This document shows positions 7,688 to 23,549 of a DNA stretch of 24,895 nucleotides, one piece after another. Location: the IMG/VR virus record IMGVR_UViG_3300034061_000237, positions 1 to 24,895 of that record; one strand, written 5' to 3'. Position numbers and translations under genes: made by a program. Under the pieces are notes generated by a model. It searched no databases. It had not been told where the DNA came from and saw nothing but the letters and a program-made list of their open reading frames with translations. Source of the stretch: a virus. Positions within the stretch are counted from its first letter, which is position 1. Each line of letters starts with the position of its first letter.

Positions 7688-8173
7688 CTAGCCCCCAGAC
7701 AAAAATAAAGCTCGTTCGGCCTCTCTACGTCTGACTAGACCGTTCAGCACCTTGCCGCCGGCCTTGTTCCATTTCAGGAACTCATCTGCTGCGCCATCGT
7801 AGTCGCCACGATTGTACTTCATTCGCAGCGTTGATGACTGCAAGTTCCCTAACCCCACATTGAACGCAAAGCTGACCAGCGCGTCAAGATGGCACTGATT
7901 ATCAGCAGCAGCAGGACATAGTCGTAGTACCCCTGCCTCAAAGCGTTGTAAATCTTTCTCAAGCAACGTATCAATCTCATCACCGGAAAACGTCCTATTG
8001 TGCTCAGTTTTGAGCGGGTAGTTGGCTCTCTCGTCGTTCTTCAACCGCGCTTGGTCAGGGTACAGCACGTGGCCGTAGGCAATCGTCCACAACGTCGCGG
8101 GGCACTTGTACGGCATGGCGTGACAACCCTCGAAGGATTTTATCAACTGTATCCCCGCCTCAGATGTACTCAT
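7688..8173 (-). CDS. Endolysin, GH24 lysozyme (muramidase)
   Basis: This 161-residue protein hydrolyses the beta-1,4 bond between N-acetylmuramic acid and N-acetylglucosamine in peptidoglycan. The GH24 signature is clear: SFEG carries the catalytic Glu15, followed after 8 residues by Cys24 and after 5 more by Thr30 (LWTIAYGH), the E-8-(C/D)-5-T spacing of phage lysozymes. LVSFAFNVGLGNLQSSTL and GLVRRREAERALFL match the conserved C-terminal helices. Length is typical for a single catalytic domain. The N-terminus (MSTSEAGIQ) is not hydrophobic, so there is no signal peptide or SAR anchor. Release should therefore depend on a holin. Its start overlaps the stop of the 3TM holin-like gene by 4 bases (ATGA). 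Confidence 0.93.
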   Translation of the reverse strand: MSTSEAGIQLIKSFEGCHAMPYKCPATLWTIAYGHVLYPDQARLKNDERANYPLKTEHNRTFSGDEIDTLLEKDLQRFEAGVLRLCPAAADNQCHLDALVSFAFNVGLGNLQSSTLRMKYNRGDYDGAADEFLKWNKAGGKVLNGLVRRREAERALFLSGG

Positions 8174-9645: not shown

Positions 9646-9990
9646 TTAAGCTGCATTCAAGGCTTCAAGGCGGCCCCATACCCAACTAGCTGCGGCAGTG
9701 GGGTCAAAGGGTATTGTGGCATCAGGGTTGTTGGGCTGTGATGGATCGGGTTGAGTCCAGTTTGCGCCTACAGTTGCAAGGTAGGTTTGCAGGTCTGACT
9801 GTGAAGCAAACACTTCAAAATCACCCGTTGCGTTGTCGCAAGAAATGCCCACCATTACCATGTCGCGGGGGGAGGGAGTTGTTGGATCACCAACCACAAA
9901 AACACCGCCTACCCCGGTTGACTCAAGGCAAAGAAACTCAGGCACTGTTCCGTTTTGATTCAATCGGTACTTCATCGCTTGATGCGCCAT
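9646..9990 (-). CDS. Small conserved phage protein, unknown function
   Basis: I choose the ATG at 9990 (MAHQAMKYRLNQNGTVPEFL) because AAGGAG lies 7 bases before it. An upstream in-frame ATG at 10050 would overlap the glycosyltransferase by more than 110 bases. The 114-residue product has SDLQTYLATVGANWTQPDP and DATIPFDPTAAASWVWGRL near its end, a pattern I have seen in small proteins next to tail or fibre genes of aquatic phages. It is soluble, acidic and has no enzymatic motif. Even with the chosen start it overlaps the end of the glycosyltransferase by 53 bases in a different frame. A fibre-assembly role is only a guess from position. Confidence 0.6.
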   Translation of the reverse strand: MAHQAMKYRLNQNGTVPEFLCLESTGVGGVFVVGDPTTPSPRDMVMVGISCDNATGDFEVFASQSDLQTYLATVGANWTQPDPSQPNNPDATIPFDPTAAASWVWGRLEALNAA

Positions 9991-10702
9991 GTTCGACTCC
10001 TTGGGCGTACTGCCCAGAAAATAAATATGCCCCAAAATGTCCCAGTTCACACCACGGAGCTGCCCATACGGAACCCCCGTGTTTTCTATAAAGATGGCAG
10101 AAGTTGTAGTCCTCTGATAACAGCTCGTGGTCTACGTTCTGAACCTTAAAATAGTCGTACACCTTTTCACCGGGCAGTGTGGTATTCCCGCTATTGGTGT
10201 ACCAACCCACATGAGGCTTTATTATCTCAAAAACGTCTCTGCGTATCAGCATAAATCCAGTGCCAATGTGTTTTACTTGGAACGGCTTGTTGGCATCGGT
10301 CATTTTATGACCCGGCAGCTCGTTGAGGTTAAATATCCCAGTAAGCTTTGACAGATTTATGTAGTTGTCCTTTACGCCTTTTCGCACTCGATCCCAGTTG
10401 ATGCCCTTCATTGGAACAGGGCCACCAATGATTCCTTTCTCTGCCTTCAACATCTTGGCTATGTCGTTTGCAACAAACTTCTGATCTGCGTCAATAAACA
10501 TCAGATGCGTTGCGTCTGGCATGGACATGAAGTGGTGCGCGATGGTGTTGCGCCCCCTCTGGATCAAAGACTCATTGCCGAGAAAGATACAAGTCATCTT
10601 GATCCCGTACTGAATACAGGCTTCTTTTAAAGCCAAGAGCGACTGCGTGTACTCGGTACACATCATGCCGCCGTAACATGGTGTTCCAATGACAAGGTGC
10701 AT
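9938..10702 (-). CDS. GT2-like glycosyltransferase
   Basis: This 254-residue protein most likely transfers a sugar from a nucleotide-sugar donor. The GT-A hallmarks are visible: an N-terminal strand MHLVIGTPCYGG, the segment ESLIQRGRNTIAHHFM (44-59) and a DxD-type metal site in HLMFIDADQKF (Asp71 and Asp73). GFMLIRRDVF follows in the middle. A C-terminal SEDYNFCHLYRKHGGSVWAAP segment with a nearby LGHFG supplies the usual acidic base and His. There is no signal peptide or membrane segment, so it should act in the cytoplasm. It lies just after the adhesin array and overlaps the preceding gene as TGATG. Possible targets are phage virion proteins or host surface precursors; the acceptor is unknown. 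The last 18 residues overlap the next gene. Confidence 0.78.
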   Translation of the reverse strand: MHLVIGTPCYGGMMCTEYTQSLLALKEACIQYGIKMTCIFLGNESLIQRGRNTIAHHFMSMPDATHLMFIDADQKFVANDIAKMLKAEKGIIGGPVPMKGINWDRVRKGVKDNYINLSKLTGIFNLNELPGHKMTDANKPFQVKHIGTGFMLIRRDVFEIIKPHVGWYTNSGNTTLPGEKVYDYFKVQNVDHELLSEDYNFCHLYRKHGGSVWAAPWCELGHFGAYLFSGQYAQGVEHGASSDEVPIESKRNSA

Positions 10703-11529
10703 CAGTCCTCCGCGCTCTTGTCTTCAAGCAACACATTAGTCAATGACGTAGGGTCAAACACCGAGAACCCGCGCCTTGCCGCAAACGTAGCAGGATCATC
10801 TGCCCACTTGTCAGCACACGCCTCAAGCCAACGCATGGTCATCTCGTGTGTAGGAGCCTGACCGTTAGCGATCAGTTGGTTTTCCATGTTCAGGTACGCA
10901 TACACTTCTGCTTGCGCTTGGGCTGCGTTGATACCTAAGTCAAACAGGTAGATCAGGTTGCCCTCGTCAATCATGCCATTACGACTACGCGCTGCGTTAA
11001 GCCCTTGCTTCATACAAGTCATAATGTGGTAGCGGGATTCTTCACGCTCATAATCTTCTTCAGTGATCTCGTTCAGCCCTACTTTTTCCAGCAACTGCTT
11101 GTGCTGGTTAACCATAAAGTTCATCTTGCGTAGTGCGCCGTTGACATGGTTCTGAGTACCTTCAAGGTGGCTGTTCAGCTCCAGAATCTCGATTTCCATC
11201 AACTCAATGTCCAGCGGGTCTGTGCAAAGGGCAAGATCACGCTCTTTCTTTTTCAGCTCGTTCTGCTTCTTACGCAGGCCAATGTAGGCTTCTTGTAATG
11301 CTGATTTTGTTCTGTCGATCTCGGCCAAGGTGTGCTTAATTGAACGGATCGGAGTAATCGCTGTAACGTCCAACGTTACTGACATAAACTGGCTGTGCGA
11401 CTTATGGAAGTTGCTTGTGTCGCGTGTAACAGCAGGCATTCTGTCCTGAATGTTTTTCAGCATGACGTTGTACTCTGGCTTGGTTACAGTCAGAGCAGTA
11501 TTCATGTTACTTAAAATAAGGTCTTTCAA
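10702..11529 (-). CDS. Coiled-coil protein, unknown phage function
   Basis: This is a 275-residue protein if translation starts at the TTG at 11529, which has AAAGGAT 6 bases upstream. An in-frame ATG at 11505 (MNTALTVTKPEYNVM) is the alternative, with a weaker ribosome binding site. Residues 67-150 are charged heptad-like helices (LRKKQNELKKKERDLA, then LMEIEILELNSHLEG). The C-terminal part is a globular helical region with MTMRWLEACADKWADDP. No catalytic motif, signal peptide or membrane segment is seen. It sits between the propeller-like adhesins and the glycosyltransferase. It might be a chaperone or virion accessory, but I do not recognise it securely. Confidence 0.6.
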   Translation of the reverse strand: MKDLILSNMNTALTVTKPEYNVMLKNIQDRMPAVTRDTSNFHKSHSQFMSVTLDVTAITPIRSIKHTLAEIDRTKSALQEAYIGLRKKQNELKKKERDLALCTDPLDIELMEIEILELNSHLEGTQNHVNGALRKMNFMVNQHKQLLEKVGLNEITEEDYEREESRYHIMTCMKQGLNAARSRNGMIDEGNLIYLFDLGINAAQAQAEVYAYLNMENQLIANGQAPTHEMTMRWLEACADKWADDPATFAARRGFSVFDPTSLTNVLLEDKSAED

Positions 11530-11556: not shown

Positions 11557-12561
11557 TTATAGCCCGCCGTGGGCGCTGGAGCAAGAAGAAACAAATTCTC
11601 TGGCCTCCAATAAATCTCCAAAATCCACTGAATTTCCTAAAGTATCAATACTTATGTATTGAATTACGTTGGTTCGGTTGCTATTCCCCGCAAAAACTCC
11701 ACGCGTACTGCTGGCACATCCCGCTGTTTCAGAGGTGACAACAAACGTATCCCCAAAATCAACAGCATTACCTGTGGAGGCAATTGTTACATAATCAATA
11801 ATATTTCGGTTTGTACTCAAAAACCCGCCAGCCCAAATACCACGAGTAGAATTAGAAAATGAGGCCATATTACTTCGCGCTAATGTCAAATCCCCAAAAT
11901 CGGTTGCGTTGCCAGTTGAGGCAATCGTTACGTAGTCAATAACATTGGTTGAATCACCGCCGCCAAAAACACCCCTTGTTTGAGAGGCCAGTCCGCCACG
12001 ACCGTAATTGCTGATGGTCGTGTCACCAAAATCTAATGCATTGCCAGTAGATGCTATGGTTATGTAAGATATTGTGTCTGTGCTGGGGTCTTGGCCGTTA
12101 GCAAAAAGACCACGCGTACTTGAAGAACACGCTGAAATGTTATATCGGGCCAATGTAAGATCGCCAAAATCTAACGCATTGCCGCTAGTTTGGAAAACAA
12201 CATAGTCTATTATGTTTACCACACCGTCCCCTTCTCCCCCTCCAAAAACACCTCGCACAGAAGAAGAGCACCCCGCTCCACCATATCTAGCTACTGTCAA
12301 ATCGCCAAAATCCGTTGCGTTACCCAATGTTGAAATCACTATGCTGTAAATAGTGTTGGCACGGGAACCGCCGTCATTGTTTCCCCCCGCAAACAACCCA
12401 ATTGGCGCAACATTCCCCGCAATCGGCCACAGCCCTTGCTTGAGCCAATAAGCTGCTTGTTCAAGCGTCCACACACCAGAAGCCGCACCGTCTTGGAAAG
12501 GGCCAGCAGGCGTTGGAGGAATAGGCTTGATGAAGCCGCCGGGCCAGTTTTTAATAGCCAT
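11557..12561 (-). CDS. Adhesin-like protein C: six blade-like repeats, third of a tandem trio
   Basis: This is a 334-residue protein. The leader has NWPGGFIKPIPP (5-16), a feature shared with paralogue A. SGVWTLEQAAYWLKQGLW (28-45) is shared with paralogue B. From residue 54 to the end there are six repeats of 44-49 residues. Each runs G-(L/V/I)-(F/W)-x-x-(G/N), then a YxxI strand, S-T-x-G-N-A-x-D-F-G-D, and a C-S/A-S ending before Arg-Gly. The last repeat ends CSSAHGGL. Repeat number and length fit a six-bladed beta propeller or Kelch-like disk, a common ligand-binding fold. The repeats here are the most diverged of the trio (one lacks the CSS, one has FSNS). It starts right after the TAG stop of gene B. 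Receptor binding is inferred. Confidence 0.75.
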   Translation of the reverse strand: MAIKNWPGGFIKPIPPTPAGPFQDGAASGVWTLEQAAYWLKQGLWPIAGNVAPIGLFAGGNNDGGSRANTIYSIVISTLGNATDFGDLTVARYGGAGCSSSVRGVFGGGEGDGVVNIIDYVVFQTSGNALDFGDLTLARYNISACSSSTRGLFANGQDPSTDTISYITIASTGNALDFGDTTISNYGRGGLASQTRGVFGGGDSTNVIDYVTIASTGNATDFGDLTLARSNMASFSNSTRGIWAGGFLSTNRNIIDYVTIASTGNAVDFGDTFVVTSETAGCASSTRGVFAGNSNRTNVIQYISIDTLGNSVDFGDLLEAREFVSSCSSAHGGL

Positions 12562-14363
12562 CTATAAGCCTCCGTGGGCGTTGGAGCAAGCTGCTAAACC
12601 GTATCTACCTGCTGTTAAATCACCAAAATTTGTTGCGTTGCCAGTAGTAGCAATCGTGACGTAATCAATCACATTAGACTTTGTTGAAGTGTTCCCCCCT
12701 CCCCATACTCCGCGAACAGTAGAAGAACAAGCGGATGTATAGTCTCGCCCCACTGTTAAATCGCCAAAATCAGTAGCGTTTCCAGCAGACGCGATTGTTA
12801 TGTAGTCAATCACATTACTATTGCTTTGACCCCCACCAAACAAACCCCTAGTGGACGACGAACACCCGGCAAGCCCGCGTCTTCCTACAGTAAGATCACC
12901 AAAATCAGTTGCATTGCCTGTTGAAGCAATGGTGACATACTGAATCACATTGGAATCGTTGCTGTCACTGGCAAAGACACCCCTAGTAGTGGAAGAACAC
13001 GCTCCCATGTACTCAGCTGTCGATAACAAGTCTCCAAAATCCGTAGCGTTACCAACAGACGCAATAGTGATGTACTGCACTACATTTATGGTACCCCCGG
13101 AAGTGTCGCCTCCTGCAAACAAGCCCCTTGTAGAACTACTGCATCCAACAATCCTTCTAGTTGCAGACAATAAGTCTCCGAAATCGAGAGCATTACCTGC
13201 CGTGGAGATAGTCACGTACTGAATTACATTGGTGGAATCTGCACCGAAACCGCCGCCCCACACTCCTCTGGTAGAGGAAGAACAGGCGGCCAAGTCCCGA
13301 GTGGCCGCAATCAAATCACCAAAATCCGTGGCATTACCTGTAGTTGGGATTAAAATATAGTCCAATATGTTTACATTAGTAGTAGTGATTCCACCACCAA
13401 ATACTCCCGTTGGTGTGGCCGGATTTGTCCAATTCCCCTGCGCCACGGCCTGATACACCGCAGGCATTGTCCATACACCGCTGTAACTAGGCATTATGCA
13501 AGTCCTCCGTGGGCGCTGGAACAACCAGCAAGACCCTCTCTCGCTGCCGTTAAATCTCCAAAATCAGTAGCGTTGCCAACAGAGGCAATCGTTACATACT
13601 GAATGATATTGCTGCTGCCGCCGCCTGCAAACAAGCCTCGCGTTAAAGAAGCACACGCGGAGTTGCCCGATTCAACTTCTATCAAATCCCCAAAATCAGT
13701 GGCATTGCCAGTAGACGCTATTGTTATATAGTCAATAACATTAATGTCCACGAAACTTGTATTGTACCCACCCCCAAAAACACCCCTTGTATCGGACGAG
13801 CATGCTGACAAGTAGACTCTTCTTACGCTCAAATCTCCAAAATCAGTGGCACTGCCTGTTGAAGCAATCGTAATGTAGTCCAGAACATTACTTACCACAC
13901 TGCCCGTCCACCCTCCACCAAAAACACCTCTCGTTGGAGAAGAACACGCGCCGGGAAGCTCTCTGTCTACTGTTAAGTTACCAAAGTCTTGTCCATTACC
14001 CGTGGTCGCTATTGTTATATATGTGATTGGGTTAGAAACTCCGCCACCTTCTTGTCCACCACCAAAAACACCTCTCGTTTGCGAAGAACATCCTGCGGTT
14101 CCGCTAGAAACGAAAGGGAAATCCCCAAAATCAACGGCGTTTCCTGCAGAAGCAATCGTTACATAATCCATCACATTAGAGTAGCCGGGAATTGACGTTA
14201 ATCCCGTAGCGAACACTGCCCTGCTGCTTGACGAACAAGCACCGAGTTGATACCGATTTTGCGTAAGGTCACCAAAATCAGTAGCGTTGCCTGTTGTTGA
14301 GAGGGTTACATAATCTATGACGTTAGACAGCCCCCCTCCTGAACCGCCACCAAACAAACCCCT
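11560..14363 (-). repeat. Eighteen blade-like coding repeats in three sets of six
   Basis: Units of about 132-150 bp occupy three blocks: 14363-13497, 13410-12565 and 12402-11560. The codons for Asp-Phe-Gly give a recurring CCAAAATC or CCAAAGTC core on the plus strand, next to GCATT/GCGTTGCC or similar. All three blocks end with near-identical DNA around GCCGTGGGCG or TCCGTGGGCG. The units are imperfect and in frame, so they are coding repeats rather than a CRISPR or satellite. They could support recombination between paralogues. Confidence 0.85.
12562..13494 (-). CDS. Adhesin-like protein B: six blade-like repeats, second of a tandem trio
   Basis: I choose the ATG at 13494 (MPSYSGVWTMPAVYQAVAQ): it overlaps the stop of gene A as TAATG and has GGAGGA 9 bases upstream. 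The 310-residue product has a short N-terminal module SGVWTMPAVYQAVAQGNW (5-22), related to that of protein C and to short modules in other phage tail proteins. It is followed from residue 29 by six repeats with consensus RG(V/L)(F/W)GGG, SNVIDYVTIAS, GNATDFGDLT and ACSSST. The final unit ends ACSNAHGGL. No membrane segment or signal is present. The repeats are uniform in length, as expected for propeller blades. It is probably a virion surface or tail-tip protein; whether A, B and C form one complex is unknown. Confidence 0.76.
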   Translation of the reverse strand: MPSYSGVWTMPAVYQAVAQGNWTNPATPTGVFGGGITTTNVNILDYILIPTTGNATDFGDLIAATRDLAACSSSTRGVWGGGFGADSTNVIQYVTISTAGNALDFGDLLSATRRIVGCSSSTRGLFAGGDTSGGTINVVQYITIASVGNATDFGDLLSTAEYMGACSSTTRGVFASDSNDSNVIQYVTIASTGNATDFGDLTVGRRGLAGCSSSTRGLFGGGQSNSNVIDYITIASAGNATDFGDLTVGRDYTSACSSTVRGVWGGGNTSTKSNVIDYVTIATTGNATNFGDLTAGRYGLAACSNAHGGL

Positions 14364-14690
14364 TGCCGCCGCAGGCGTTACACTGCCACTAGCCGAGCTA
14401 AAAGGGCTGGGGCCATAACTGTTCAGCGCCCACACAGAAAACGTGTACGGCGTACCGTTCGTTAATCCAGTTACAGTAATTGGCGACGATGCACCTGAGA
14501 CCGTTACCCGTTCAGGGCTGGAAACCGCGTAGTACGCCGTGATAGCCGAACCACCCACGTTAGCGGGTGCAGTAAAAGCAACTGATGCGGAAGCATTTCC
14601 CGCGCTCGCCGTGCCAATTGTAGGCGCGTTCGGGTTCTTTAGCGGATCATAATTAGCCGAAATAAACCCGGCTGGCGGTCGTAAAGACAT
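13494..14690 (-). CDS. Adhesin-like protein A: FN3 domain plus six blade-like repeats
   Basis: The ATG at 14690 (MSLRPPAGFISANYDPL) is preferred: it lies 10 bases after the upstream stop with AAGGGG before it. An in-frame ATG at 14741 would overlap the previous gene by 41 bases. The product is 398 residues. Residues 6-10 (PAGFI) resemble the leader of protein C. Residues about 19-108 are a clear fibronectin type III domain (NAPTIGTASAG, ITVTGLTNGTPYTFSVWALN). Residues 110-397 hold six repeats of 43-50 residues, with motifs RGVFGGG, IDYITIAS, GNATDFGDL and ACSS, ending GCSSAHGGLA. FN3 domains and propellers are both frequent in phage proteins that contact host surface polysaccharides. It is the first and largest of three tandem paralogues. 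Confidence 0.77.
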   Translation of the reverse strand: MSLRPPAGFISANYDPLKNPNAPTIGTASAGNASASVAFTAPANVGGSAITAYYAVSSPERVTVSGASSPITVTGLTNGTPYTFSVWALNSYGPSPFSSASGSVTPAAARGLFGGGSGGGLSNVIDYVTLSTTGNATDFGDLTQNRYQLGACSSSSRAVFATGLTSIPGYSNVMDYVTIASAGNAVDFGDFPFVSSGTAGCSSQTRGVFGGGQEGGGVSNPITYITIATTGNGQDFGNLTVDRELPGACSSPTRGVFGGGWTGSVVSNVLDYITIASTGSATDFGDLSVRRVYLSACSSDTRGVFGGGYNTSFVDINVIDYITIASTGNATDFGDLIEVESGNSACASLTRGLFAGGGSSNIIQYVTIASVGNATDFGDLTAAREGLAGCSSAHGGLA

Positions 14691-14700
14691 GGGGTACCCC

Positions 14701-15084
14701 TTACGTAATTTCTTCCCACGAGACCGTAACAACGATGTCATTCGCTACGCTGGCTGTTGCACCAATCGACTTGTCTTCCAAGAGATAGAAGGTTGTGGTC
14801 TTGTCTGTGATGATCAGCGTTGCGTCAGCAGGGACAGAGATCGTGGAAACAATCGCAGTGCCCGTACCTCCAAGATCGTCCTGAGAGAAAATCTTGATTG
14901 TAATGTCCGCCGCGTTAGTGCCATCGACGTTTGCAGCAACAATGGAATTGATCTTGTAGACCTTGCCGCTGGATGCCGCGTTGTTGACCAGCGCAGTCGC
15001 AAACGGGTCAGCCGTTGAGCTGATTAAATTGGTACTGGTGTTGCCCAGTATACTGGTCACGTTAACAATATTCGGATTTGCCAC
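14701..15084 (-). CDS. Small beta-rich virion protein (GTG start)
   Basis: This is a 127-residue protein starting with GTG at 15084. AAGGAG lies 7 bases before it, immediately after the stop of the fibre gene. The sequence begins MANPNIVNVTSILGNT and continues with GKVYKINSIVAANVDGTNAA, ADITIKIF and VPADATLIITDKTTTFYL. I recall this pattern from a very common small structural protein of marine phages. It is a predicted beta sandwich with no membrane segment or signal. It lies between the short fibre and the propeller-like adhesins, so a tail-tip or decoration role is likely. The exact role is not established. Confidence 0.68.
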   Translation of the reverse strand: MANPNIVNVTSILGNTSTNLISSTADPFATALVNNAASSGKVYKINSIVAANVDGTNAADITIKIFSQDDLGGTGTAIVSTISVPADATLIITDKTTTFYLLEDKSIGATASVANDIVVTVSWEEIT

Positions 15085-15095
15085 GTTCTATCTCC

Positions 15096-15911
15096 TTACA
15101 AACCAAAAATTAGCGAGAAAGCGATGGCTTGGCCTTTACTGGCTCCACTCGCTGCTGGGGTTGTTGATTGCCACGTTGTGCCGTTACTGGTCAGGACGTT
15201 ACCGTTTGAGCCGGGTGCTACAAACAGCGGGGCTGATGTGCCGTTGCCCAAGATTACGTTGTTCAGAGTCAGCGTTGTCGCGCCTGTGCCGCCGTTGCCG
15301 ACGGGTAGAGTACCCGTAACATTGGTGGTCAGGTTGACAAAGGTTGTAGACGTAGTGCCCGTACCGCCGTTGGCGATTGGCAATGTGCCCGTAACATTGG
15401 TGGTCAGGTTGGCAAAGGTTGTAGACGTAGTGCCCGTACCGCCGTTGGCGATTGGCAATGTGCCAGTCACGCCCGTAGCCAAACTCACCGTGGGGTTAGC
15501 CAGCGTAACTGCCGCGCCTCCACCCGCACCGTCAGTTACTATCATCGCCTTTGTGCCGGTCGCAATGGTTACCGTAGCACCTGAGCCTTGTGATATCGTA
15601 ATCGACTGACTGCCGCTCGTAGCGTTCTCAATGATCCAGACCTTGGACACCGTATTTGGCGCCAGTGTCACGGTACGCGTTACAGTCAAGGACACCGCAG
15701 AGGTAATCTTCAAGTACAGCGAGCGGACACCGTCAGCCGACGCATCCGGCATCGTAAAGGTCTCGTTGGCGTCAGCGGCCATCTGCTTGGTGCCAAGGCT
15801 AAAAGCGTCAGCGATCAGGGCGAGGTTGGTGTTGGTGCTTGTGCCCCATGTGCCTGACTCGTCGCCCGTGGCGATTTCCTTTAGTCGTAGATCATTTGAA
15901 TAACTTGCCAT
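15096..15911 (-). CDS. Short tail fibre-like protein with GTLPxxNGGTG repeats
   Basis: This is a 271-residue protein. The N-terminal part MASYSNDLRLKEIATGDESG with GTWGTSTNTNLALIADAF is a familiar phage tail-fibre opening. A beta-rich middle follows (TFTMPDASADGVRSLYLKI, VWIIENATSGSQSITIS). Residues about 147-220 contain three VTGTLPxxNGGTG(T/A)T units, the motif seen in many trimeric phage fibres. The tail GNVLTSNGTTWQSTTPAASG also resembles phage fibre tips. The two central repeat units are almost identical in DNA (75 bp each). Start ATG at 15911 lies 8 bases after the upstream TAG, with TAGGAG as ribosome binding site. It is likely a host-contact or fibre-linker protein. Confidence 0.8.
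   Translation of the reverse strand: MASYSNDLRLKEIATGDESGTWGTSTNTNLALIADAFSLGTKQMAADANETFTMPDASADGVRSLYLKITSAVSLTVTRTVTLAPNTVSKVWIIENATSGSQSITISQGSGATVTIATGTKAMIVTDGAGGGAAVTLANPTVSLATGVTGTLPIANGGTGTTSTTFANLTTNVTGTLPIANGGTGTTSTTFVNLTTNVTGTLPVGNGGTGATTLTLNNVILGNGTSAPLFVAPGSNGNVLTSNGTTWQSTTPAASGASKGQAIAFSLIFGL
15313..15462 (-). repeat. 75-bp tandem repeat inside the fibre gene
   Basis: Two adjacent 75-bp units (15313-15387 and 15388-15462) are nearly identical. The clear differences are one G/A change in an Ala/Val codon and divergence at the end of the second unit. Each encodes 25 residues of the VTGTLPIANGGTG type. A third, more diverged protein-level unit lies beside them. The high DNA identity suggests recent duplication or recombination. 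Confidence 0.88.
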
Positions 15912-21540: not shown

Positions 21541-22503
21541 TTACGCTTTTTGGGGGGAGGTGTCAATGGTCTCGCCCTTTAATGCCCGCCTTGCGTTTTC
21601 TGTTTTCCAATCCTCCCTCATGCATGCTGTGCAACTGCCTTTGACTTTCCGGGGGGATATATGTCCTCGGACACAAGGCATCCCCGTAAAATACTCTTTG
21701 CTTCCCGCAGCTTTAGCAGCCTGTCGGGTACGGGGGTAGCTTGCGTACTCCTCAGATATGCTAGGACCTTGGTTAGGCGCCGCGTCCGCATAAGACAACA
21801 CCCATCCTGCCAACACACCACATTTTACCGGCTTTCCTGACCCGCAGGCTCTGATGGTGGTAGCGATAGAAACCCCCAGCTCGTCCCGCATAACGGATAA
21901 CCCTGCGAAAATACGTGTCTGCCCATCGGGGAGCCTTGCGAAAACAGCCCTGCGAAGCTTGTTTTTAGTCTCTTCGGTATGCGTTTTGCCCAACCAGTTT
22001 TGGTTGCCCGCATTGGCAATAGAAAGACTTCGGCGGTGTTCTTCTGAACGGATATGCCCCTTGGGGCCACGGTTACCCTCGCTAGCCTTCGACATTTTTT
22101 CACGGGTTTCCTTCGACGGAATAAACTTTCCGCCACGCCCTTCAGCTAACGCTGCTTGAACTTTGGCGGATAAAAGGGCTTTAGTCTCTTCCGTGTGCGG
22201 GATTCCTGTGCGCATCCCTATAGCATCGGTGTTTATGTTGTAGCACTCGGGCTTGCTAACATGCTCGTGAAGGTACTTATTTTCATGTTCAAAAGTAGAT
22301 ATACCTTCGGGAACTTCTTCAAGCACCTCAAAAACAAACGCATCCTCTCCGTACTTGTTCCAAGATGCCTGAAGGTGCGGGTTCTTATGTACACCCCTTT
22401 TTAAATCGTTCCTGTGCTGCCACTCGCGGCGAGCAAAAGACTCCGCACTGCCTATGTAGTACTTGTTGTTAATCATGTTTGTAATGCGGTAGATAACAGC
22501 CAT
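21541..22503 (-). CDS. Freestanding GIY-YIG homing endonuclease, I-TevI-like
   Basis: This 320-residue protein is predicted to cut DNA at a specific site and so spread its own gene. Residues 3-5 (VIY) and 15-18 (YYIG) form the GIY-YIG pair. Arg25 or Arg26 and Glu74 (FEHENKYL) match the catalytic Arg and Glu of phage T4 I-TevI, whose 20-50 region is closely similar by eye (NKYGEDAF, LEEVPE). Residues about 100-185 hold NUMOD3-like DNA-binding motifs (HTEETKALLSAKV, KETREKMSKAS, SEEHRRSLSIA, HTEETKNKLRRA). A helix-turn-helix-like unit (IFAGLSVMRDELGVSIATT) and a zinc-finger-like C-terminus (CVRGH … CTACMRED) follow. AAGGAG lies 8 bases before the ATG, and a promoter lies just upstream. Both flanking genes look intact, so it is intergenic rather than intron-borne. 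Confidence 0.88.
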   Translation of the reverse strand: MAVIYRITNMINNKYYIGSAESFARREWQHRNDLKRGVHKNPHLQASWNKYGEDAFVFEVLEEVPEGISTFEHENKYLHEHVSKPECYNINTDAIGMRTGIPHTEETKALLSAKVQAALAEGRGGKFIPSKETREKMSKASEGNRGPKGHIRSEEHRRSLSIANAGNQNWLGKTHTEETKNKLRRAVFARLPDGQTRIFAGLSVMRDELGVSIATTIRACGSGKPVKCGVLAGWVLSYADAAPNQGPSISEEYASYPRTRQAAKAAGSKEYFTGMPCVRGHISPRKVKGSCTACMREDWKTENARRALKGETIDTSPQKA

Positions 22504-22640: not shown

Positions 22641-23549
22641 TTACGGAGTACCGGGTGAGCCGAATATTCCGCGAGGATCAGAAAATCCAAACGAGTATCT
22701 CTCCCGCGCTTTGTACCTAACGTTACCAGTATCGAAGTCACCTTCAAAGCCGGTTTTGATCGCAGCACGGTTGAACATCTTCATGCCGTTAGGCGCATCG
22801 GTCTTGATGAAGAACGCATCTGGATCAACGAGGAAGTGGTTAACAGTGTAGCCCTGCGGAACCATGCCCATGTTGCGGATCGCGTTAATGTCGTTATCCG
22901 CTGTGCCTACGCGCAGGGTTGACTTCATGATACGGTCAGCAGTGAACTGCAGCTCTTTCGGGATGATCAGCTTCAGACCCTGAATCGCGATCTTCAAACC
23001 ACGCTCATCAGTGAAGGCAGCGATGTCGATCAGCGCCTGCTCCAGTGAGGTTTCAGAGAGGTCTGCAGATACAGACAGCTCGTTACGCAGATTTGGACCA
23101 CTCAGCGTGGGGTGATCTGTTGAGCAAAGCGCAACGCCGTCGCCACCGATTGAGGTGGTGAATGCACCGTTCAGGATGGCCGCAGCTTTGATCTGCTTGG
23201 TCTGCGCCATTGAGCGAGCCAGTGCCTTGGTGTAACGCACTGACAGACGGTCGTAGAGGTTGTCTTCTACGGCTTCTTCGGTCAGGCTGAACGCCAGAGC
23301 AATAGTTTCATGGGTGTAGCGAGCGGTGTAGACTTCTTGCGCGTTGTCGTACTCGACACCTGCGCCTTCAGACTTCACGGGTGCTTCGCCAAAACCGGAG
23401 AGCATAACTTCTTCTTCAAATGCGCGGTCAGAAGATTCAATTGAATAAATCTCCGTGTGCTCATTTTCGTAGTTGTCGTACTCCATACCGAACAGAGCGT
23501 TAAGACCCGGCTCAAGTTCGGCGACTAATTGGGAACGAGAAATAGCCAT
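22641..23549 (-). CDS. Major capsid protein (HK97-fold, Mu gpT-like family)
   Basis: This 302-residue protein is the main shell protein. It opens MAISRSQLVAELEPGLNALF. TARYTHETIALAFSLTEEAV and LSVRYTKALARSMAQTKQIK follow, forming the long helix region. GDGVALCSTDHPTLSGPNLRN is a motif I associate with Mu-like gpT and related environmental phage capsids. Later segments are DERGLKIAIQGLKLIIPKEL, STLRVGTADNDINAIRN and a conserved end VRYKARERYSFGFSDPRGIF. No protease domain is fused. TAGGAG lies 8 bases before the ATG. Position behind the decoration-like gene, size and motifs all agree. High late expression followed by a dedicated terminator fits a capsid gene. Confidence 0.88.
   Translation of the reverse strand: MAISRSQLVAELEPGLNALFGMEYDNYENEHTEIYSIESSDRAFEEEVMLSGFGEAPVKSEGAGVEYDNAQEVYTARYTHETIALAFSLTEEAVEDNLYDRLSVRYTKALARSMAQTKQIKAAAILNGAFTTSIGGDGVALCSTDHPTLSGPNLRNELSVSADLSETSLEQALIDIAAFTDERGLKIAIQGLKLIIPKELQFTADRIMKSTLRVGTADNDINAIRNMGMVPQGYTVNHFLVDPDAFFIKTDAPNGMKMFNRAAIKTGFEGDFDTGNVRYKARERYSFGFSDPRGIFGSPGTP

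Follow-up and report, generated by a model that had tools for sequence, protein, structure and literature searches.

Modular receptor-binding proteins and Kelch-like proteins are both already known from phages. For the former, the portion of the literature considered here (PMC8262889) describes, for example in Klebsiella phages, a conserved N-terminal anchor and an exchangeable C-terminal specificity module. In complexes of Kelch proteins with their substrates, BC loops frame the pocket, while DA loops form its floor (PMC7333892). HTVC023P-type pelagiphages and phages CRP-901/902 (PMC10149686) have a related tail-fibre N-terminus and capsid proteins 59-71% identical to that of the window, as we call the whole stretch of DNA analysed, a complete IMG/VR virus record of 24,895 bases; propeller matches were sought in these phages, and none was found.

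The window contains three adjacent genes, A, B and C, whose features are collected in Table 1. They are arranged head to tail: the stop codon of A overlaps the start of B (TAATG), and the start of C immediately follows the stop of B. Each contains six repeats of about 43-50 residues, as already noticed in the preliminary description, with the motifs RG(V/L)F(G/A)GG, NVIDY(I/V)TIAS, GNATDFGDL and ACSS always in this order. The three proteins are mutually 53-58% identical, and their repeats fall only in PHROGs families of unknown function. The array sits in a tail gene module, where it adjoins a tail-fibre gene and lies upstream of lysis genes. Outside the array, positions 7688-8173 encode a phage lysozyme, beside which 7004-7687 matches a ferredoxin-annotated phage family (phrog_3704, 7.7e-31); a homing endonuclease at 21541-22503 (phrog_314, 8.5e-37) adjoins the major head gene at 22641-23549.

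The three genes probably constitute a three-slot array of receptor-binding proteins (adhesins), with slot-specific anchors and exchangeable propeller heads, in a tailed phage related to HTVC023P. The anchors (RPPAGFI plus FN3; SGVWT..NW; GGFI plus GVWT) would fix the products to tail or fibre. Each head in the window would be a closed six-bladed Kelch-type propeller, running from strand b of blade 1 to the strand-a segment ACSS-AHGGL, by which the ring would be closed; replacement of whole heads, by recombination between the anchor and the terminal HGG/Shine-Dalgarno seam, would alter specificity slot by slot. The earlier interpretation of the trio, taken as a whole, is partly supported.

Table 1. 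Features of the three-gene array and of its immediate neighbours in the window
Feature	Position	Strand	Description
Gene A (slot 1)	13494-14690	minus	398 aa, ATG at 14690; RPPAGFI N-terminal anchor, FN3 and six-repeat head
Gene B (slot 2)	12562-13494	minus	310 aa, ATG at 13494; short SGVWT..GNW anchor and six-repeat head
Gene C (slot 3)	11557-12561	minus	334 aa, start at 12561; WPGGFI and GVWTL..KQGLWP anchor (~53 aa) and six-repeat head
FN3 domain of gene A, ahead of the repeats	14394-14612	minus	Pfam fn3, E 9.1e-7
Head of gene A	13497-14366	minus	six Kelch-like blades, terminus AHGGLA; fold predicted by homology to B
Head of gene B	12565-13380	minus	six Kelch-like blades, terminus AHGGL; predicted by AlphaFold2, Foldseek
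Head of gene C	11560-12402	minus	six Kelch-like blades, terminus AHGGL; fold predicted by homology to B
GGAGG in the HGG codons of gene A	13504-13508	minus	Shine-Dalgarno, 9 nt upstream of the gene B start codon; position-dependent codon choice
GGAGG in the HGG codons of gene B	12569-12573	minus	Shine-Dalgarno, 7 nt upstream of the gene C start codon; position-dependent codon choice
Upstream neighbour	15096-15911	minus	N-terminus resembles that of phage tail-fibre proteins (60-63% identical in Roseobacter phages CRP-901/902)
Gene directly upstream of the array	14701-15084	minus	127 aa; 89-96% identical in several relatives with different heads
Conserved downstream neighbour, adjoining the array	10702-11529	minus	TTG start; 76-100% identity in nearest relatives; phrog_1409, 3.9e-7

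Repeat number and predicted fold of the heads

The open reading frames of about 240 loci were scanned with a repeat profile, and repeats were counted in distinct ORFs uncut by a locus end. Of 300 such ORFs, 236 contain six repeats, 51 twelve and 13 other numbers. With this many six- and twelve-repeat relatives in other loci, the pattern is far beyond chance. Arbitrary repeat numbers among homologues, which the preliminary description had named as speaking against a propeller, do not occur, apart from exceptions that can be accounted for. Six of the 13 are halves of three split genes (2+4 in loci L019 and L103, 3+3 in L035), each summing to six; three, in L016, L006 and L056, have 3, 1 and 1 repeats, the first two resembling internal deletions; the other four come from the distant cyanophage S-SKS1. 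The first survey was biased towards full-length six-repeat relatives; searches with the anchors, blind to repeat number, agreed with it. Intact genes show blades only in sixes, and are thus a clean example of a ring-size constraint.

Proteins with twelve repeats feature a linker at mid-length, such as AAAVQPTPTSAAMALFGGG. One of them was modelled: two beta units are predicted (mean pLDDT 83.2, pTM 0.53), between which residues 337-345 form a linker of low confidence. The comparison of this model with six-bladed Kelch domains gives a TMt of about 0.9 and a TMq of about 0.42, as expected for two tandem rings. On this model and its matches, a single 12-bladed ring is unsupported.

Some related loci feature unusual gene arrangements. 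In L019 (5440-5540) and L035 (6890-6990) a stop-start (TAATG, TGATG) splits the slot-1 gene within a b-c loop, and Gly codons at the split site form a Shine-Dalgarno-like GGAGGTG or GGGGGTG; these split genes could correspond to a two-chain propeller or to a frameshift. A contig of 72.7 kb (L042, 1-15144) carries eleven propeller genes with other N-termini, ten of them with six repeats and one cut by the locus end. Related propellers are also found in L085 and L086, contigs assigned to Parcubacteria and Nomurabacteria MAGs, which are either phage contigs or misbinned.

The protein encoded by gene B was modelled by AlphaFold2 from an alignment of 73 proteins, taken from the window and related loci (mean pLDDT 94.6, pTM 0.89). 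The model is in agreement with the six-bladed propeller suspected earlier: a closed ring of six four-stranded blades is predicted, and the 891 PDB matches reported by Foldseek at E<=0.001 are headed by the six-bladed Kelch domains of KLHL12 (4e-20, TM 0.79/0.87) and KEAP1, at 10-15% identity. In the repeats, strand b is followed by a Gly doublet (G at 0.87 and 0.89 in the two columns; 1,152 repeats). The nearest predicted viral structures belong to uncultured Caudovirales proteins, to cyanophage S-SKS1 and to phage Kelch-like and virion structural proteins. At the sequence level, Pfam Kelch models had no match to A, B or C at E<=1, and a PDB sequence search with B gave no matches; the S-SKS1 relative does clear the Kelch_3 cut-off (34.5 vs 22 bits). 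The predicted fold, together with the lack of a Pfam match, indicates a Kelch-type propeller beyond the reach of Pfam by sequence. The heads of A and C, being homologous to B, are likely to be six-bladed Kelch-type propellers as well.

The AHGGL terminus previously ascribed to all three proteins is exact in B and C, while A ends in AHGGLA. The closure of the ring at this end, also proposed earlier, is plausible: the heads start at strand b, and the strand a that they lack can come from the C-terminal ACSS-AHGGL.

Sequence variation is unevenly distributed along the blades. In 1,152 aligned repeats, mean entropy is 3.32 bits in the b-c loops and 3.12 in the d-a loops, against 1.22 in the c-d turns and 1.18 in the a-b turns. 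In a four-stranded antiparallel blade, b-c and d-a loops share one face; on the predicted structure, variation is concentrated on that face of the propeller. By analogy with eukaryotic Kelch proteins, this hypervariable face is likely to be the ligand-binding one.

Anchors, slots and alternative heads

The N-termini of the array proteins form three classes, and the order 1-2-3 is kept. The presence of three copies in one phage had been regarded as unusual; in this phage group it is the usual arrangement. Of the distinct loci retrieved by the 50-residue slot-3 anchor alone, 37 extend far enough upstream, and in 36 of these two more array genes lie just upstream. In 29 of the 36 these are of classes 1 and 2, in five the second gene scores best on the FN3-containing class-1 model, and in the remaining two, which are variants, the first gene is split or belongs to no class.

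The same anchors also bear other heads: 84 ORFs carry non-Kelch ones, namely Gly_rich_2, laminin-G, Lcl_C, DUF7483, an SBBP beta-propeller, a second six-repeat family and a YPWS-repeat family. Full trios tend to be of one head family (22 of 35; shuffling gives an expectation of 10.8 and at most 17). A metagenome-assembled genome of Dishui Lake origin, DSL-LC04 (PMC10611076), encodes a capsid protein 88% identical to that of the window and carries six laminin-G stretches on the same anchor type. The second six-repeat family (GIFALG-x-TTRNKYTYSG; L141, 5481-6353, and 13 others) combines a near-constant scaffold with one strongly variable loop; it matches no Pfam family above cut-off, and its profile comparison with the Kelch heads (87% probability, E 4e-6) is suggestive only. 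The YPWS heads, of up to seven repeats, are found on the same anchors in L154 (3494-4654) and relatives, with no Pfam match.

These alternative heads bear on what the propellers do. That they act within the infected cell, off the virion, as Kelch-like protein adaptors may be surmised from the nearest solved structures, which are intracellular adaptor domains; yet the genes lie in the structural module, beside tail genes, and lectin heads occur on the same anchors, so that such a role is very improbable. The heads might instead be enzymes, such as propeller depolymerases degrading surface polysaccharide, six-bladed beta-propellers being among the depolymerase folds predicted in Klebsiella phages (PMC11448410). 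This, too, is improbable: the loops of the variable face contain no conserved, potentially catalytic residues, conservation being found in strands and turns instead, and the alternative heads on these anchors are of lectin or adhesin type. The putative receptor binding by the heads is well supported by their context, and the tail-fibre neighbour, the lectin or adhesin heads on the same anchors and the pattern of exchange described below suggest that the array proteins are attached to the virion and that their replacement changes the host range.

Head exchange and gene junctions

Heads are replaced one at a time, within conserved flanks. When the window is compared with locus L104, the heads of B are 98% identical, those of A and C only 57% and 52%, while anchors are 90-100% identical; among the neighbours, 14701-15084 is 96% identical, 10702-11529 86% and 9938-10702 89%, with 46-94% for genes further out. 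In the comparison with L017 it is C that is shared, at 98%, vs 51% for A and 56% for B; anchors are 70% (A), 100% (B) and 94% (C) identical, and downstream genes 85-100%. In the few pairs inspected by eye, DNA divergence starts at the anchor end, and identity returns at or near the HGG/Shine-Dalgarno seam. More generally, where two slot-3 anchors share 90% identity or more, the heads are mostly less than 65% identical (120 of 143 pairs); the slot-3 anchor being short, this indicates decoupling rather than recent exchange.

Heads are also found to cross slots. The slot-1 head of L213 is the slot-3 head of L014 (96% identical heads; 96.5% DNA identity over 853 nt), the slot-1 anchor regions of the two loci being 97.6% identical; two further slot-crossing pairs show 94% and 89% protein identity. 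It may be, although the odds lie slightly against it, that the array works as a combinatorial tropism kit, each of its three slots drawing independently on a large common pool of closed-ring heads, which move between slots and phages at the two defined seams; the set of receptors would then change one head at a time, leaving the tail unaltered.

The compared contigs are all metagenome assemblies, with exact stretches shared from the anchors, and repeat proteins are known to assemble poorly: in marine data, long reads contain Kelch-repeat proteins at 9 times the frequency seen in assembled sets (PMC9238414). The relatives being nearly all metagenome contigs, some of the mosaicism could thus be assembly chimerism. 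As an explanation of head exchange at large, however, chimeric assembly at conserved anchors is unlikely: exchanged heads are 89-98% identical across data sets, rather than 100%, ORFs remain open and in order, and quite different folds occur on the same anchors. The results on fold, repeat number and trio are independent of the exchange in any case.

The data do not support other origins of the diversity. A recent tandem duplication of the trio, or gene conversion within it, finds no support in the relationships of the heads: in no case (0 of 204) is the nearest relative of a head another head of the same locus, and the median identity of Kelch heads is 50.0% within a locus and 49.3% in general. 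As for blade-by-blade shuffling, no blade pair reaches 90% DNA identity between otherwise different heads. Nor do heads seem tied to one slot: with near-identical orthologues excluded, the nearest relative is from the same slot at a frequency of 0.44, vs 0.35 by chance, a weak test at about 59% identity.

The 3' seam coincides with the junction to the next gene. The GGAGG found in the terminal HGG codons of A and B is missing in C, the last gene of the array, where the Gly-Gly codons are GGC GGG. The same holds in the related loci: of the propeller genes preceding another array gene, 142 of 175 have GGAGG in their terminal Gly-Gly codons, vs 15 of 110 others (Fisher p ~1e-30), the figure for internal Gly-Gly pairs being 325 of 2254. 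The HGG residues themselves are present in 90 of 116 last genes and in 136 of 186 internal ones. AHGGL is therefore not kept solely as a Shine-Dalgarno sequence: HGG is as frequent in last genes, and only codon choice differs with position, indicating that the residues serve the protein, while the choice of codons serves the next gene. Their role in the protein is probably ring closure.

Against the reading of the heads as receptor-binding proteins, the products might decorate the virion and bind particles, mucus or glycans generally, without deciding the host; laminin-G, Lcl_C and FN3 domains do occur in general adhesins too. The position of the array next to a tail-fibre gene and the replacement of single heads between conserved flanks, typical of host-specificity genes, make this a rather unlikely account, though less so than an enzymatic function or an assembly artefact.

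Comparison with known systems

Open-access full texts gave no description of a three-slot array. Should the receptor-binding reading hold, host recognition in a widespread, mostly uncultured group of aquatic phages would depend on an array with a compact, closed-ring specificity part, which varies almost exclusively on one face. The related loci would then provide hundreds of natural binders, directly expressible, as well as a route linking uncultured phages to their hosts, and slot-wise exchange would be a natural process, trackable in long-read viromes.

With Kelch-type propellers, such as KEAP1, KLHL12 and the Pfam Kelch families, the heads share the predicted six four-stranded blades, the Gly-Gly after strand b and the BC/DA face, which in the window proteins is the putative ligand face. 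They differ from them by an identity of only 10-15%, by near-uniform repeats, by their phage anchors and by the absence of a Pfam Kelch match. Annotated phage Kelch-like proteins (BcepSaruman, PS119XW, vB_PcaM_CBB; BFVD matches) have a similar predicted fold, but are only 10-20% identical to those of the window.

The array has a conserved N-terminal anchor and an exchangeable C-terminal part. As far as the portion of the Klebsiella phage literature considered here goes, it shares with the modular receptor-binding proteins the conserved anchor, the swapped specificity part and the position in the tail module. The modular tailspikes described in that portion are enzymes (PMC8262889); the array, unlike the Klebsiella proteins as presented there, combines three anchor classes in a fixed order with slot-crossing heads and small rings, predicted to be closed.
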